Below are positions 3,085 through 19,414 of a stretch of 26,876 nt of DNA, in pieces (positions within the stretch are counted from its first letter, which is position 1; each line of letters opens with the position of its first letter). A program made the position numbers and the translations under genes. The stretch covers positions 1 to 26,876 of the forward strand of contig LKUE01000363.1 of the NCBI GenBank assembly GCA_001412365.1, written 5' to 3'. The notes beneath the pieces are model-generated. The model was not told the DNA's origin, did not search any database, and worked only from the letters and a program-made list of their open reading frames with translations. The DNA is from Desulfuromonas sp. SDB. Lineage in GTDB: Bacteria > SDB-A.

Positions 3085-3351
3085 ATGGATATAATCTGGG
3101 ATAAAAATAAAAATGATCTACTGAAACTAAGCAGGAATATATCTTTTGAAGAAATAAGTGAAAAAATAGTTAATAAAGAATACATCGATATAATAGAGAA
3201 TCCAATAAGAGAAGATCAATTATATTTTATAATGAGCATTAATAATTATATTTGGATATTGCTATTTATTATTGATGAAAAATTAAATATTGTATTAAAA
3301 ACAGCCTTTCCGAGTAGGAAGTTCAATATGAAATATGGAGGGAGAAAATGA
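3085..3351 (+). CDS. BrnT-like toxin
   Basis: An 88-residue protein beginning MDIIWDKNKNDLLKLSRNIS, close to the BrnT opening (hydrophobic-x-W-D-x-x-K, then a helix and SFEEI). It continues with a strand-rich core (QLYFIMSINNYIWILLFIID) and ends KTAFPSRKFNMKYGG, as in many short BrnT/RelE-fold toxins whose C-terminal Arg and Tyr/Lys residues act in RNA cleavage. No Shine-Dalgarno sequence lies upstream of ATG 3085; the -10 box ends five bases before it, so translation may start on a leaderless message. The frame overlaps the antitoxin by four bases (ATGA at 3348-3351). Very AT-rich, unlike the preceding cassette. Assignment to BrnT-like toxins is by pattern and partner; divergence from the classical family is considerable. 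Confidence 0.75.
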   Translation: MDIIWDKNKNDLLKLSRNISFEEISEKIVNKEYIDIIENPIREDQLYFIMSINNYIWILLFIIDEKLNIVLKTAFPSRKFNMKYGGRK

Positions 3352-3659
3352 ATAATAAATATAAACTCACAGAAGAAGAAAAGATAATAGAAGAGGAATT
3401 AGATAATTATAAAGCTGTAACAGGGAAAAAAAGAGAAAAAATAGAAAAAATAATTGAAAATGCAAAGAAGAATAAAGCAATAAGTTTACGCATGACAAAT
3501 TTTGATCTTAAAAAAATAAAGGAAAAAGCAAAAGATGAAGGAATACCATATCAGACATTGATAACAAATATTCTTCATAAATATATTACAAACCAATTAT
3601 TTGATAAAGAAGAAATGCTAAAAACTATAAGATTATTAAAAGAAGAAAAGGCAATATAA
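3348..3659 (+). CDS. CopG/BrnA-like antitoxin
   Basis: A 103-residue, highly charged protein. Residues 44-83 form the probable ribbon-helix-helix domain: KAISLRMTNFDLKKIKEKAK, then DEGIPYQTLITNILHKYIT, the pattern of CopG antitoxins that follow BrnT-like toxins. The N-terminal 40 residues are predicted helical and rich in Glu and Lys, probably the toxin-contacting part. It starts at the ATGA overlap with the toxin stop, so the two are coupled. It likely represses the promoter at 3051-3079 through the TGTATATACA palindrome. Its stop codon TAA (3657-3659) is embedded in the left box of attC 5, a compact arrangement seen in cassettes. Confidence 0.8.
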   Translation: MNNKYKLTEEEKIIEEELDNYKAVTGKKREKIEKIIENAKKNKAISLRMTNFDLKKIKEKAKDEGIPYQTLITNILHKYITNQLFDKEEMLKTIRLLKEEKAI

Positions 3660-4847: not shown

Positions 4848-4980
4848 GCCTAACAAGCAACTACAACCGACCTTTATACGAATGCCTGCGAGTTTAGTAC
4901 CTGTGCAGAGTTATCCGTTGTCGGTCAGGTATACTGCCTGCTTCATCGTTGTCAAAGGCGGCTGAGCAGGATCGTTATCT
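4848..4980 (+). other. attC site 6 (after kinase gene; imperfect arms)
   Basis: The left box GCCTAAC (4848-4854) fits RYYYAAC exactly and is followed by AAGCAACTACAACCGACC. The right box is GTTATCT (4974-4980). Unlike the other sites, the left arm is not clearly complementary to the sequence just before the right box (GGCTGAGCAGGATC); a possible partner, GTTGTCGGTC, lies internally at 4917-4926. The left box pairs with the start of its own cassette (TTAGAC, 3781-3786) with one mismatch. Confidence 0.55.
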
Positions 4981-5015
4981 TAAAAATGATATGAAAAAAC
5001 AGAAAAGTATGCTTA

Positions 5016-5055
5016 TTGACAATCTTGACAGAATGTTGTATATCTTAAATATAAT
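5016..5055 (+). promoter_or_regulatory. Promoter(s) for leader RNA and NYN nuclease
   Basis: Two TTGACA hexamers occur at 5016-5021 and 5025-5030. The first has TATATC at 5039-5044 with a 17-bp spacer; the second has a perfect TATAAT at 5050-5055 with a 19-bp spacer. Either would start transcription between about 5051 and 5063, just ahead of the two hairpins. The doubled -35 is unusual and suggests strong or alternative initiation. Confidence 0.7.
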
Positions 5056-5056
5056 C

Positions 5057-5114
5057 ATCCCTAGTGGGATTTATCTCACTAGCCACCTCTGGGTTACGAT
5101 CCAGAGGTTTTTTT
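5057..5114 (+). ncRNA. Structured leader RNA upstream of NYN nuclease
   Basis: Hairpin 1 pairs CTAGTGGGA (5061-5069) with TCTCACTAG (5074-5082) around a TTTA loop, nine pairs including one G-U. Hairpin 2 pairs CCTCTGG (5086-5092) with CCAGAGG (5101-5107) around GTTACGAT and is followed by seven T. ATCCC (5057-5061) can instead pair with GGGAT (5066-5070), which excludes hairpin 1. The RNA would be about 50 nt, bounded by a strong promoter and a terminator-like end, with the nuclease start five bases further on. It may be a separate small RNA, an attenuator, or a substrate/inhibitor of the nuclease. I cannot match it to a named RNA family. Confidence 0.6.
5086..5114 (+). terminator. Terminator-like hairpin in the leader, overlapping the ribosome site
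   Basis: A perfect 7-bp GC-rich stem (5086-5092 with 5101-5107) with an 8-nt loop runs into TTTTTTT (5108-5114), the form of a rho-independent terminator. Its right arm ends in AGAGG, the only Shine-Dalgarno-like sequence before ATG 5119 (11-nt spacing), so the hairpin could also hide the ribosome site. Confidence 0.75.
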
Positions 5115-5118
5115 ATAT

Positions 5119-5754
5119 ATGAACAGAATAACATATCTCATTGACGGGTTTAATGTATACCACTCCATTTTAAGCCTTAAAAGGCGTACAGGTTACTGCA
5201 CAAAATGGCTCAATCTATCATCCCTTTGCAAATCATATCTAAATTTATTTGGTAAAGATGCTAAGATACAAGATATATACTACTTTTCAGCACTAGCCCA
5301 TTATCTAAGCACAAAAAATTCTAATAAAGTTAAAAAACATGAGGACTACATTACTTGTCTCAAATCACTTGATATCAAAATTGAACTTGGTAGATTCAAA
5401 GAAAAAGATGTATTTTGCGATAATTGCAAAACTATGATTTTGAAACATGAAGAAAAAGAAACTAATGTGGCTATTGGAGTAAGATTAGTAGAAGTTCTAT
5501 TTACCGATTCTTGCGATAGCGTTATTATTATGTCTGATGACACCGATCTATCTCCCGCCATCAGGAGATGTACAGAATTATTCCCAGACAATAAGATAAT
5601 TTTTGCCTTCCCTTTTGCCCGTAAAAATAAAGAGTTGCTTTCATTAGCTCCGGGTTCTTTCTCGATAAGCAAAAAACAATACATTAGACATCAATTACCT
5701 AACCCGGTAGTTTTACCGGATGGAAAAGAAATATATAAACCGAGCTCTTGGTGA
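5119..5754 (+). CDS. NYN/PIN-domain ribonuclease (LabA-like)
   Basis: A 211-residue protein. It starts with a strand and YLIDGFNVY (Asp9), the first acidic motif of NYN domains. Residues 98-104 hold VFCDNCK, a CxxC pair (Cys100, Cys103) likely binding metal; then KHEEKETNVAIGVRL (109-123), where the family usually has an Asp at the position of Asn116; then VIIMSDDTDLSPAI (135-148) with Asp141 and Asp143, and a conserved-looking C-terminal stretch (FAFPFARKNKEL, LAPGSFSISKKQYIRHQLP). NYN domains are PIN-fold, metal-dependent RNases. The gene fills one integron cassette (4975-5824), has its own promoter, and follows a two-hairpin leader. A toxin or defence role is possible but inferred. The Asn116 change could lower or alter metal binding; Glu112 or Glu114 may compensate. 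Confidence 0.85.
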   Translation: MNRITYLIDGFNVYHSILSLKRRTGYCTKWLNLSSLCKSYLNLFGKDAKIQDIYYFSALAHYLSTKNSNKVKKHEDYITCLKSLDIKIELGRFKEKDVFCDNCKTMILKHEEKETNVAIGVRLVEVLFTDSCDSVIIMSDDTDLSPAIRRCTELFPDNKIIFAFPFARKNKELLSLAPGSFSISKKQYIRHQLPNPVVLPDGKEIYKPSSW

Positions 5755-5764
5755 AAAAAATAAA

Positions 5765-5830
5765 AGATAACAACTCACTCCAGGCGAACGAAAACCAGCA
5801 CTTTCCGACGCCTGAGCTTGAATGTTAAGA
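5765..5830 (+). other. attC site 7 (after NYN gene; end of array)
   Basis: Left box AGATAAC (5765-5771) and right sequence GTTAAGA (5824-5830). Inner arms CAGGCG (5781-5786) and CGCCTG (5809-5814) are perfectly complementary, with CTCACTC and GAGCTTG extending the stem. Length of 66 bp is classic. The left box is the exact reverse complement of GTTATCT (4974-4980) at the start of the same cassette. The last A of the right box is the first base of the next gene's ATG. Confidence 0.75.
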
Positions 5831-11180: not shown

Positions 11181-13391
11181 ATGAAGCCAATTTATCTTGA
11201 TTACAATGCCACTACTCCTCTGGATCCGGAGGTGGTAAAGGCAATGGATCCCTATCTCCGGGAATATTTTGGAAATCCCTCCAGTACCCACTGGTATGGA
11301 ATCCAAACCAAAAAAGCAGTTGAACATGCCCGTAAACAGGTGGCGGAACTTCTAAATTGTCATCCTGATGAAGTTGTGTTTACCAGTGGAGGCACTGAAT
11401 CAAACAACTACGCGATCAAAGGAATTGCTTTGCATAAGCAGAACCAGGGAAGACATATAATCACTTCCCAAATTGAGCATCCCGCAGTTATAGAGGTATG
11501 CAGATATCTTGAAAATATCGGATTTCAAGTAACCTACCTGCCAGTGGACAGTTTTGGTCTAGTAGAGGTAGAAGATGTGAAAAAAGCTATAACTCCCCAC
11601 ACTATACTGATTACAATTATGCACGCCAATAACGAGGTTGGAACTATTCAGCCTATTTCAGAAATTGCTGATTTAGCCAGAAAAAATAATATCGTAATGC
11701 ACACTGATGCTGCCCAATCGGTAGGGAAAATTCCCACCAGGGTTGATCAATTAGGAGTGGATCTATTGTCTATAGCCGGTCATAAACTTTATGCCCCCAA
11801 AGGAGTTGGCGCATTGTTTATACGCCGGGGCATAAAATTGTCAAAATTAATCCACGGAGCTGATCATGAACAGAACCGGAGAGCGGGTACTGAAAATGTA
11901 TTGGAAATTATAGGATTGGGTAAAGCCTGTGAAATTAGTTTTCAAGATCTCGAAGAAAATGCCCGGCATATGAAAGATATGAGAGATAGATTATATAAAA
12001 AATTAATACAAAACTTGGGAGAAATAAAATTAAATGGACATCCGGAGTTTAGGCTGCCTAATACTCTTAGTATCAGTTTTTCCAATATTGAAGCTAATCT
12101 AATTCTTTCTGAAATTGAGGAAGTTGCAGCCTCTGCAGGGGCAGCCTGCCATTCTGACTCTGTGGATATATCTCCGGTGTTGACTGCGATGAGAGTTCCG
12201 GTTGAACAAGCTATGGGAACAATTAGATTTAGTACCGGAAGAATGACCGGGGAGGAAGAAATAGATAGAGCAGCTGAATTTATAAGTGATGCTATAAAGA
12301 GGTTAAACCCCTCTCTATCCTCCACTGGACAAAAGAAAGTTGACATTTCCAGGATAAAACTGACCAATTTCACCACCGGATTGGGCTGCGCCTGTAAACT
12401 TCGACCACAGGTGCTGGAGAAAATACTGGCAGATATGCCCTTGCCGGATGATAAGAATATATTAGTGGGAACAGAGACAGGAGATGATGCTGCGGTATAC
12501 CGCATAAATGATCGCACTGCAATTGTGCAAACTGTAGATTTTTTCACTCCCATTGTAGATGATCCCTATCATTTTGGAGCAATTGCCGCTGCAAATTCCT
12601 TAAGTGATATTTACGCTATGGGCGGGAAACCGTTATTTGCATTGAATATTGTGGGTTTCCCTTCGAACCGGCTTCCTTTGGAAATATTGAGACTGATTCT
12701 CAAGGGAGCTTTGGATAAAGCTGAACAGGCGGGGATCAGTATACTGGGCGGACATACTGTTGATGATAATGAACCCAAGTTTGGAATGGCAGTTGCCGGA
12801 ATTGTTGATCCCCGGAGAATTTTAACTAATTCTAATGCCCAGCCTAAAGATGTTTTAATTTTAACCAAGCCCATCGGTTTGGGAATAATTACAACTGCGA
12901 TAAAAAGAGGTTTAACTGAACAATCAACAGTTGACCGGGCTATTGAAATAATGAGTGCACTAAACCGTGATGCTGCGGAAATATTGAATAATTTTCCGGT
13001 TAACGCCTGTACCGATGTAACTGGTTTTGGTTTGCTGGGGCATCTCAAGGAAATGTCTGAAGCAAGCAGGGTTGATGCTGAGATTTATCTGGATAAAATT
13101 CCTACGATAGCTGAAGCATGGGATTTTGCAGCTGCTAATGTAGTGCCCGGAGGAACCTTGAATAATCTGGAGTTTGTCAATGATATAATCCAATGGAGTG
13201 ATCAGATATCAGATGTTGCTAAAATAATCCTCTGCGATGCTCAAACCTCAGGGGGACTGTTATTTTCTGTTCCTTCATCATATCAAGGTGAGCTGATAAA
13301 ACAAATGCAGCAGAAGGGAATTTCCCACGCCAGCTGTATTGGAAAATTTACTAAAAAGGGCACGGGGAAAATCATGGTTAATAAGAGTTAA
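11181..13391 (+). CDS. selD: Cysteine desulfurase-selenide, water dikinase fusion (NifS-SelD)
   Basis: A 736-residue two-enzyme protein. Residues 1-375 are a class V aminotransferase-fold cysteine desulfurase: YLDYNATTPLDP, SGGTESNNYAIKG, HTDAAQSVGK, SIAGHKLYAPKG with PLP lysine Lys202, and ASAGAACHSD with catalytic Cys323. From about 390 a full SelD follows: LGCACKLRP with Cys403 and Lys406 at the places of E. coli Cys17 and Lys20, then VGTETGDDAAVY, QTVDFFTPIVDDPYHFG, TDVTGFGLLGHL and DAQTSGGLL. The first half can take selenium (or sulfur) from cysteine compounds, the second makes selenophosphate for selenocysteine or selenouridine. Fusion should pass selenide directly between sites. The active Cys is encoded as Cys, not selenocysteine. 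ATG 11181 is preceded by AAAAAAGGATAA. The CPBP gene follows after 5 bp. Confidence 0.95.
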   Translation: MKPIYLDYNATTPLDPEVVKAMDPYLREYFGNPSSTHWYGIQTKKAVEHARKQVAELLNCHPDEVVFTSGGTESNNYAIKGIALHKQNQGRHIITSQIEHPAVIEVCRYLENIGFQVTYLPVDSFGLVEVEDVKKAITPHTILITIMHANNEVGTIQPISEIADLARKNNIVMHTDAAQSVGKIPTRVDQLGVDLLSIAGHKLYAPKGVGALFIRRGIKLSKLIHGADHEQNRRAGTENVLEIIGLGKACEISFQDLEENARHMKDMRDRLYKKLIQNLGEIKLNGHPEFRLPNTLSISFSNIEANLILSEIEEVAASAGAACHSDSVDISPVLTAMRVPVEQAMGTIRFSTGRMTGEEEIDRAAEFISDAIKRLNPSLSSTGQKKVDISRIKLTNFTTGLGCACKLRPQVLEKILADMPLPDDKNILVGTETGDDAAVYRINDRTAIVQTVDFFTPIVDDPYHFGAIAAANSLSDIYAMGGKPLFALNIVGFPSNRLPLEILRLILKGALDKAEQAGISILGGHTVDDNEPKFGMAVAGIVDPRRILTNSNAQPKDVLILTKPIGLGIITTAIKRGLTEQSTVDRAIEIMSALNRDAAEILNNFPVNACTDVTGFGLLGHLKEMSEASRVDAEIYLDKIPTIAEAWDFAAANVVPGGTLNNLEFVNDIIQWSDQISDVAKIILCDAQTSGGLLFSVPSSYQGELIKQMQQKGISHASCIGKFTKKGTGKIMVNKS

Positions 13392-16865: not shown

Positions 16866-18080
16866 ATGAATAATTTTGAAAAACACTGTTTTTTATTCCT
16901 GGGAGTATTTTTGATTTTTGTACAATCATTGACCAGTGCAGATATTTTAAATCCTGAAGATTACCAGATCGCTATGGGAAATAATTCCTTCGGGATTGAA
17001 ATGTATAGGCAGTTAAGCAGAGATAATACTGAAAATATCTTTTTTTCTCCCTTTAGTTTATATACATCCCTGTCTATTCTGTACGAAGGAGCTGATGGCT
17101 CTACCCGTCAGAAAATAAAAGCAGTATTGGAATTTTATGATGATGATCAAATGTTAAGATCGGGATTTGAAAGTATTATGGCTTATTACAATTCAATCAC
17201 TACTCAAAATCAGCTGATTTTAGCTAATGCCCTGTGGTTTCAGCAGGATTATCCGGTATCCGATGATTTTATTAAGATTATCCAACAGTACTATCAAGGT
17301 GAAGTAGATGAATTGGACTTCTGTAATCATCCGGATCAGTCTGCTCAACAGATAAACCAGTGGATTTATGATAAAACCCTGGGAAAAATTGAGAATATAG
17401 TAAGTGAAGAGATGATTGATCCATTAACCGTGATGATTTTAACCAATGCAATATATTTTCGGGGAGTCTGGAAGTATCAGTTTGATCCGGAAATGACTGA
17501 TTCGATGTTTTTCTTTGTCACCAGTGAACGAAAAGTCAAAGTTCCCATGATGTTGATAAATGATGAAGATTTGTTATTTGACTATGCTGAAAATGAATTA
17601 CTTCAGGCATTGGAGTTGCCCTATGAAGGTGAAAATTTAGTAATGACCATTTTACTCCCCAAACAAAATCTATCTGAAGTTGAACCGGAGTTTGATTATG
17701 AAAATTTAAATGAAATATTAGATGATCTGCATTCTGAAAATGTAACTGTATACCTGCCCCGATTCAGTTTTAACAGCAAATATATCGTTAATGACTATCT
17801 ATCTGACTTAGGTTTAGGAGAAATTTTTTCATCCGATTCAGATTTTAGCCGGATAAGTTCCCTGAACAATTTATTTGTTAACTTAATTTTACATCAGGCA
17901 TTAGTTGAAGTTAATGAACAGGGAACCGAAGCGGCAGCGGCAACCGTAGTAATGATTGCGGCAAATGGGCACAGCTATCAAAAAGTTTTTTACGCCAACC
18001 GCCCGTTTATATTTATGATTAGAGACAGGCAAACCGGATGTATTTTGTTTATGGGTAGATTGGTTGATCCATCTGTATGA
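16866..18080 (+). CDS. Exported serpin 1 (serine protease inhibitor family)
   Basis: A 404-residue serpin with a signal peptide (hydrophobic core FLFLGVFLIFVQSLTSA). Serpin landmarks: NIFFSPFSLYTSLSILYEGA, LILANALWFQ, LTNAIYFRGVWKYQFDP, NLVMTILLP, VTVYLPRFSF, the hinge VEVNEQGTEAAAAT and the end RPFIFMIRDRQTGCILFMGR. The hinge is alanine-rich with small residues, as needed for loop insertion, so it should be inhibitory. Counting 14 residues from the hinge Thr (P14) places Asn at P1 and Gly at P1', with VVMIAA before it; the exact P1 is uncertain by one or two. AAGGAG (16855-16860) precedes ATG 16866. A second serpin follows after 83 bp. Likely targets are exported proteases, host or bacterial. 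Confidence 0.93.
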   Translation: MNNFEKHCFLFLGVFLIFVQSLTSADILNPEDYQIAMGNNSFGIEMYRQLSRDNTENIFFSPFSLYTSLSILYEGADGSTRQKIKAVLEFYDDDQMLRSGFESIMAYYNSITTQNQLILANALWFQQDYPVSDDFIKIIQQYYQGEVDELDFCNHPDQSAQQINQWIYDKTLGKIENIVSEEMIDPLTVMILTNAIYFRGVWKYQFDPEMTDSMFFFVTSERKVKVPMMLINDEDLLFDYAENELLQALELPYEGENLVMTILLPKQNLSEVEPEFDYENLNEILDDLHSENVTVYLPRFSFNSKYIVNDYLSDLGLGEIFSSDSDFSRISSLNNLFVNLILHQALVEVNEQGTEAAAATVVMIAANGHSYQKVFYANRPFIFMIRDRQTGCILFMGRLVDPSV

Positions 18081-18163
18081 TTGAAATTTAATTAATAGGG
18101 ATAATTTGGAATAATAAATTGTTGAAATCAGTAAATATTATTTAAACAAAACAAGGAGTAATT

Positions 18164-19414
18164 ATGAGAAAATTTAAGTTTTTTTGGCTATTTTTCATTA
18201 TGTTTAATTTTGTTGGAATCAGTCAAATAGCCTGGGCAGTAGATGACTCTGGTTCAGATCAGGAAGGAGTTCAGATGGTGGTGGAAGCTAACAATCAGTT
18301 TGCTCTGGAAATGTTTGCACAGGTAAGTGAACAGGATTCAGGGAATGTATTTTTCTCTCCGTACAGTGTATCTACAGCTCTTGCCATGACTTATGAAGGA
18401 GCCAGGGGTGAAACAGCAGATCAGATTAGATCGGTTTTTCATTATCCTGAAGATGATATGACCAGAAGATATAATTTTGCCCGAATCTACAATCTACTGA
18501 ATCAGCCTGATCAAAAATATCAACTTAATACTGCCAATGCCTTATGGGCACAGGAAGATTATCAATTTGCTGATGAGTATTTTAAAGTAATTGATCAGTA
18601 CTACGGAGGGAAAGTCACCAATATGAACTTTGCCGCTCAACCCGAACCGTGCAGACAGACCATTAACCGCTGGGTGGAAGATCAGACCAATGATAAAATT
18701 AAAGATCTGATTCAATCAGGACAAATTACTCCCTTAACCACCTTAATATTAACCAATGCCATTTACTTCAAAGGAACTTGGAAATATCAATTTGATCCTG
18801 AGCAAACGCAGGAAATGGATTTCAGGATTTCTCCGGATGAACAGGTAAAAGTGGATATGATGTTTTTTGATAAGAATGAAGAAAATCAATTCAACTACGC
18901 CCAAACTGACCAGTTTCAAATTTTAGAATTACCCTATGATGGAGAAAATCTATCCATGCTGATTTTACTTCCCATTATTGGCACTGAAACTAAAAATTTT
19001 AATTGTCAGGAAATAAATCTTGATCTTCAACAGATTGAAGAATTTAAACAGCTTCTTACTCCCCAACCTGTAACCATCTATCTTCCTAAGTTTAAAATTG
19101 AAACCAGATATCTGCTCAATGATTGCCTTACCAGCTTGGGTATGCCCCTGGCTTTTGAGCGGAGGGCTGACTTTTCAGGAATGACCGGTTATCAGGATCT
19201 TATAATTAGTTTAGTAATTCACCAGGCATTTGTAGAAGTTAATGAAGAGGGAACCGAAGCAGCGGCAGCCACTGCAGTGTTGATGGAAAGAACCACTACT
19301 GCTATTCCCCGCAATGTATTTAAGGCAGATCATCCCTTTTTGTTTTTCATCCAGGATAACCGTACTGGTATGATCTTATTTATGGGGCGTATTACCAATC
19401 CTTCTGAAGGTTGA
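18164..19414 (+). CDS. Exported serpin 2 (serine protease inhibitor family)
   Basis: A 416-residue serpin with a signal peptide (FKFFWLFFIMFNFVGISQIAWA). It shares all landmarks of serpin 1: NVFFSPYSVSTALAMTYEGA, NTANALWAQ, LTNAIYFKGTWKYQFDPEQT, NLSMLILLP, VTIYLPKFKI, hinge VEVNEEGTEAAAAT and HPFLFFIQDNRTGMILFMGR. The reactive loop differs: from P14 Thr the count gives MERTTT, with Thr at P1 and Arg at P2, or Arg at P1 if shifted by one. So the two inhibitors probably trap different proteases. AAGGAG lies before ATG 18164. The gene ends 47 bp before a convergent rhodanese gene, with a terminator between. Probably a tandem duplication followed by loop divergence. Confidence 0.93.
   Translation: MRKFKFFWLFFIMFNFVGISQIAWAVDDSGSDQEGVQMVVEANNQFALEMFAQVSEQDSGNVFFSPYSVSTALAMTYEGARGETADQIRSVFHYPEDDMTRRYNFARIYNLLNQPDQKYQLNTANALWAQEDYQFADEYFKVIDQYYGGKVTNMNFAAQPEPCRQTINRWVEDQTNDKIKDLIQSGQITPLTTLILTNAIYFKGTWKYQFDPEQTQEMDFRISPDEQVKVDMMFFDKNEENQFNYAQTDQFQILELPYDGENLSMLILLPIIGTETKNFNCQEINLDLQQIEEFKQLLTPQPVTIYLPKFKIETRYLLNDCLTSLGMPLAFERRADFSGMTGYQDLIISLVIHQAFVEVNEEGTEAAAATAVLMERTTTAIPRNVFKADHPFLFFIQDNRTGMILFMGRITNPSEG

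Follow-up and report, generated by a model that had tools for sequence, protein, structure and literature searches.

In the type III toxin-antitoxin (TA) systems ToxIN, CptIN and TenpIN, a promoter, an RNA, a Rho-independent terminator and an RNase gene follow one another in that order, and the antitoxin precursor consists of tandem RNA units (PMC5772629, PMC5086642). Phages are known to escape such a system by means of an RNA that mimics the type III antitoxin (PMC3475682). In AbiF/RCd22, a small terminated RNA likewise lies upstream of the gene of a toxic protein, in this case an Abi_2 protein; the RNA, for which two motifs have been described, is active in trans by direct binding (PMC12373285). 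HEC-09, a candidate family for phage defence, has the NYN/PIN nuclease fold and putative anti-phage activity; in one survey, its presence correlated with susceptibility to phage (PMC12447246). The PADLOC model for HEC-09 consists of the protein alone and does not include a partner RNA. In the literature that we searched, a partial coverage without preprints, we found neither a dedicated RNA partner gene for NYN-domain RNases nor a description of an NYN protein paired with a structured RNA. Here we describe a gene cassette of Desulfuromonas sp. SDB in which a small, structured RNA is located directly ahead of a HEC-09 gene, together with its relatives.

Results

The window, that is, the whole 26,876-nt stretch of DNA that was analysed, is an array of gene cassettes, which include MazEF-like and BrnT/CopG-like toxin-antitoxin cassettes. 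The cassette studied here is bordered on the left by an attC-like recombination site at 4848-4980 (GCCTAAC...GTTATCT), with 22 outer pairs when folded. On the right, an inverted repeat read from the sequence, TAACAACTC...GAATGTTAAG, suggests a short and atypical attC-like border at 5766-5830; a stricter attC scan did not find it. An integron integrase above the NCBIfam cut-off (396 bits) is encoded elsewhere in the same genome (G000:C253), and the contig with the integrase has an attC-like stretch of its own, which shares 89% identity over 47 nt with positions 2918-2964 of the window. With attC-like borders, of which the atypical right one is putative, and an integrase in the genome, the unit has the make-up of an integron gene cassette.

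Several other features of the window were recorded. The BrnT-like and CopG-like ORFs at 3085-3659 share one cassette and are probably a divergent BrnT/BrnA pair, and a cassette ORF at 2351-2911 is weakly similar to N-glycosylase/DNA lyase. A 736-aa ORF at 11181-13391 appears, as judged from its sequence, to be a fusion of cysteine desulfurase and selenophosphate synthetase. Two adjacent serpin-like ORFs at 16866-19414, whose DNA stretches are 71-77% identical, are likely a tandem duplication.

NYN-fold proteins are RNases. The gene at 5119-5754 on the + strand encodes a putative RNase of this fold, of 211 aa, which matches the PADLOC HEC-09 model PDLC04163 over its full length (E = 1.1e-45; residues 1-211, profile 1-202/203) and Pfam NYN with 1.2e-5. 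The AlphaFold model has a pLDDT of 97.5, and the top matches in the fold comparison were 2qip (Z = 17.4) and the NYN domain of MARF1 (Z = 15.4), while a sequence search of the PDB gave weak relatives only. The conserved acidic residues are D9, E112, D141 and D143. The predicted fold and these active-site residues indicate an NYN-domain RNase with putative catalysis, in agreement with the NYN/PIN RNase that the initial annotation had placed downstream of the RNA. All 62 aligned family members match the HEC-09 model. The Desulfuromonas sp. SDB genome contains one HEC-09 gene, and none was present in the few relatives searched from the phylum of this organism.

The RNA ahead of this gene, which we call type A, is about 60 nt long, occupies 5055-5114 on the + strand, and scores 76.1 bits with the type A covariance model, R1. 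It begins with UCAUCCC, followed by hairpin P1 (5061-5082; 9 bp, loop UUUA), a linker, and P2 with its U tract (5085-5114), in which the hairpin (10 bp, 5085-5108) is capped by a UACG tetraloop. Both hairpins are seen in folding and in family covariation, and P2 with the U tract was also detected as an intrinsic terminator between the RNA and the NYN gene. The U tract ends at 5114, leaving a four-base gap to the ATG at 5119. The folding energy of the leader is -26.1 kcal/mol, compared with a mean of -11.9 for shuffled sequences (z = -5.7), and 0 of 200 shuffles were as good. No pseudoknot was found in the RNA. Thus, the two hairpins and the terminator-like end described at the outset are retained, while the proposed length of about 50 nt is too short. 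The RNA had also been described as lacking repeats, which is true of the window copy, a single unit, but not of its relatives, which can have tandem units. The window genome has no second convincing copy, the best other R1 match having E = 0.07.

The promoter was originally read as a doubled TTGACA with TATAAT. A promoter signal is indeed present, but the pair is probably a different one. TATAAT (5050-5055) overlaps the conserved 5' end of the RNA (UCAUCCC, 5055) and is 19 nt from the second TTGACA. Furthermore, the distance from the start of TTGACA to the 5' end of the RNA is 35-40 nt in 40 of 52 type A loci (mean of 8.1 loci after shuffling). In an 81% identical relative (L014), TTGACA-17-TATATT is retained, and neither the second TTGACA nor TATAAT remains. 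Because of this family register and the conservation in L014, we assign the probable RNA promoter to 5016-5044 on the + strand, with the first TTGACA at 5016-5021, a 17-nt spacer, and TATATC at 5039-5044. The pair with TATAAT was probably wrongly chosen.

The set of homologues was drawn from plasmids, phages, bacterial genomes and viral contigs. A leader of about 60 nt was found before HEC-09 genes in >15 phyla, many of the sources being MAGs with uncertain taxonomy and frameshifts. In close homologues the upstream region follows the same plan: UCAUCCC, a hairpin, a GG-CCCC linker, and a terminator hairpin that often has a UNCG cap. In the alignment of 22 type A sequences, 95.7% of the cells are paired and double changes are seen at 13 of 17 pairs, with compensatory changes in both stems. 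The covariation score is 0.509, compared with 0.234 (sd 0.018) for shuffled and at most 0.185 for slid alignments. The starting set was chosen by eye and motif; R1 then recovered loci that were not part of it, such as L043, L036 and L029, and also found type A in three loci (L200, L204 and L205) of an unbiased sample of 297 genomes from one phylum. When R1 was run on both strands of 166 sources (about 960 kb), 63 sources had matches with E <1e-3, a rough value from a short calibration, on the NYN strand and immediately before NYN. Below this threshold there were two exceptions: L039 has a second copy, and L038 has a palindromic echo of 24 nt. The Omnitrophota genome containing L014 has three weak R1 matches with 125-nt spacing (G004:C24:97-388), which may belong to a tandem repeat unrelated to the RNA.

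A related clade outside type A has a second two-hairpin RNA, type B, with the plan ACCCCGCC-P1-GGCCCGACG-P2-UUUCUUU. It is 94.4% paired, with a covariation score of 0.454 against 0.202 when shuffled. Type B is antisense to NYN in 22 of 24 loci and sense in the other two (L066 and L012, the latter left out of the type B model, R2). The antisense copies have a promoter in the gap, directed away from NYN, and 16 of 21 have TTGACA at a distance of 33-51 nt upstream (2.7 when shuffled). Since it is antisense and has its own promoter, the type B RNA cannot be the NYN mRNA leader in most loci. Independent genome samples gave two further antisense copies and one sense copy (L198, L201 and L199), and two more antisense copies were found in L245 and L246. 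A third RNA, type C, has the plan CCCC..GGUUUCGACC..GGG followed by a GC-rich terminator hairpin, and covaries at 14 of 17 pairs (15 sequences). Pseudomonas, Pantoea, Klebsiella and small E. coli plasmids have other structured RNAs before NYN, and several of these RNAs, which belong to none of the three types, were assigned by eye. No leader has an Rfam match at gathering score, and weak matches at a loose threshold are far below the gathering scores; the RNA families described here are absent from Rfam 15. We predict a discrete RNA of about 60 nt with a 5' start at UCAUC or UUAACCCC.

How closely is the RNA linked to the protein? In an unbiased sample of Thermodesulfobacteriota, 17 of 17 full-length HEC-09 genes have a structured element (judged by eye). 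In the 150 nt upstream of HEC-09 genes, a terminator is present on the + strand in 79 of 149 cases (53%) and on the - strand in 24 of 149, compared with 12 of 611 (2%) and 11 of 611, respectively, for other genes of the same loci. Furthermore, the RNA type tracks the NYN protein tree, with one A/B change over 68 labelled rows. The initial annotation had named two findings, either of which would speak against the unit: a leader missing from homologues, or a lack of covariation in the stems. A structured RNA occupies the corresponding position in nearly all homologues, the unbiased genome samples included, and the stems covary not only in type A but in types B and C too.

The tandem arrangement takes several forms. 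Three non-identical two-hairpin units of about 50 nt each are found in seven loci (L053, L101, L102, L104, L124, L125 and L088), with a U tract after the last unit only. Two type C units are present in L146, and two type B units in the antisense loci L063, L067, L082, L086 and L091.

HEC-09-like NYN genes also occur on cryptic plasmids of small size (3.5-5.7 kb) from E. coli, Salmonella and Klebsiella (L002-L004, L009, L229 and L230), downstream of a structured, terminated intergenic RNA; some of these plasmids have a divergent helix-turn-helix gene. In a Thiothrix locus (L233, 2195-2710), a convergent gene of a ProQ/FinO-family RNA chaperone follows NYN, and a Marinobacter plasmid with a HEC-09 gene also carries a PAGEV sRNA (RF03037; L008, 908-1135).

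The RNA also occurs without NYN. A Thermoleophilia genome (G017) has nine R1 copies, several of them adjoining degraded or absent NYN genes, and another genome (G010) has a second, NYN-less R1 copy with a promoter. Among 274 Gammaproteobacteria, R2 matched in 8 genomes and HEC-09 in 10, with both in 5, and five of the R2 places have no NYN nearby. In IMG/VR, 20 contigs fit the type B pattern, of which 19 were confirmed by R2 (40-77 bits). No HEC-09 gene was found in the fetched stretches of these contigs, although viral records may be fragments with an NYN gene beyond their ends. Thirteen viral records with an orphan RNA (five type A, eight type B) were searched whole, and no HEC-09 was found, while the control record was positive. 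Genes for terminase, portal and replication proteins are located near the orphan viral RNAs. One candidate from a relaxed phage pattern (L286) was discarded when R2 did not confirm it, as were three type A pattern candidates (L260, L266 and L270) that R1 did not confirm. Weak R1 matches in Thermodesulfobacteriota genomes without NYN (L188-L197, 24-31 bits) were excluded from the orphans. A separate NYN-less type A RNA (L186, 1501-1562; 51.8 bits) was seen in a Thermodesulfobacteriota genome.

Discussion

What is the function of the RNA? Because it can be in either orientation, in tandem units, and in copies without NYN, we argue that it probably acts in trans on the NYN protein. The cassette is, in our judgement, probably a two-part module of an RNA antitoxin acting in trans and an NYN-fold RNase. 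In the mechanism that we propose, the RNA would be made in excess from the strong promoter, with most transcripts ending at P2, and the NYN mRNA would arise by read-through past P2. The folded RNA would bind the NYN protein and keep the nuclease inactive. If the supply of RNA drops, as might happen upon phage shut-off of host transcription or loss of the mobile element, the nuclease would be freed to cut cellular or phage RNA, with addiction or abortive infection as the result. A phage with an NYN-less copy of the RNA could then neutralise NYN. The binding of RNA and protein, inhibition, toxicity, phage activity and transcript levels in this scheme are what we infer from comparison of sequences. 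The RNA-antitoxin-like unit suggested by the initial annotation is nevertheless strengthened by the covariation, the near-universal RNA, and the antisense, tandem and NYN-less copies, with binding, inhibition and cleavage putative. We also count the BrnT/CopG- and MazEF-like cassettes of the array in favour of the antitoxin. Against it are the single unit and the lack of a pseudoknot in the window RNA, and the correlation of HEC-09 with phage susceptibility (PMC12447246).

Alternatively, NYN might depend on the RNA for target cutting, as other RNA-dependent nucleases do, with the RNA as an activating cofactor or scaffold and the phage copies as decoys, possibly inactive ones. The strict linkage of RNA and NYN, the co-evolution of RNA type with NYN clade, the use of either orientation and the tandem units would all suit such a ribonucleoprotein effector, but the RNA consists only of stems, short loops and conserved single strands, with no variable or guide-like segment, and NYN-less RNAs that persist in bacteria are easier to explain for an antitoxin than for a cofactor. 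Furthermore, we favour inhibition over activation because of the excess of RNA before the terminator, the RNA outlasting loss of NYN, and the phage-borne copies. This is not proof, and we regard the cofactor as the main rival reading, though an unlikely one.

A cis-acting attenuator or riboswitch, in which the hairpins and the terminator set NYN read-through upon a signal, is less likely again. In type A, the distance between the terminator end and the start codon ranges from a few to some tens of nt, and some loci are missing a clear Shine-Dalgarno sequence, as might be expected for such control. However, most type B RNAs are on the other strand and directed away from NYN by their own promoter, and cannot attenuate it; the NYN-less copies in phages and bacteria, and the U tract on the last tandem unit only, also argue against attenuation, and an alternative antiterminator pairing is not visible in about 60 nt. 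An attenuator should always be in cis, in the sense direction and upstream, and the antisense and NYN-less copies are not; type A alone could still fit. Slightly less probable still is that NYN is not a toxin but matures a small regulatory RNA with targets elsewhere. As an RNase, NYN could be a processing enzyme, and the tandem units do resemble a precursor for cutting, but the stems vary freely between species and the conserved single strands are short, which suits recognition by a protein better than pairing with mRNA, and the distribution is mobile (small plasmids, phage contigs, an integron cassette). An ordinary terminator or insulation element unrelated in function to NYN is very improbable, for although intrinsic terminators are common and the element ends like one, the 53% rate against 2% at control genes, the conserved 5' end, linker and loops, the lineage-specific RNA type, and model matches almost only at NYN loci all speak against it.

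The HEC-09 NYN proteins may, with a little less than even probability, be the toxins of a new and very widespread class of RNA-guarded nucleases, in which the RNA is of several unrelated types, encoded either sense or antisense, and NYN-less copies serve phages as anti-defence RNAs. If so, the candidate defence gene HEC-09 would gain a missing partner and a mechanism, RNA-antitoxin control would have arisen on yet another nuclease fold, and the disarming of the system by phage RNA copies would become a directly testable question. The small natural E. coli plasmids with homologues would permit simple laboratory tests.

The window protein shares its fold and conserved acidic residues with LabA-like proteins and the NYN domain of MARF1, and it is a member of PADLOC HEC-09. 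Its order of promoter, RNA, terminator and RNase gene behind one promoter, which is also that of the other type A loci, is that of type III TA systems, while 22 of the 24 type B loci, being antisense, depart from it. The tandem RNA units of some HEC-09 relatives follow the type III antitoxin precursor plan, and the mobile spread is also alike, as is the precedent of a phage RNA mimic (PMC3475682). By contrast, the toxins ToxN, CptN and TenpN have the MazF/Kid fold rather than NYN/PIN; each RNA unit here has two hairpins, and the RNA is often antisense with its own promoter. With a different toxin fold and a single-unit RNA, the window system is outside the described type III families. AbiF shares the small terminated RNA upstream of the protein gene, but its protein is Abi_2, whereas NYN is the only Pfam domain found in the window protein, and its abiF motif, RF03085, has no match here. 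The window system is not AbiF, and it would act like type III TA systems and AbiF with an unrelated protein fold and an unrelated RNA.
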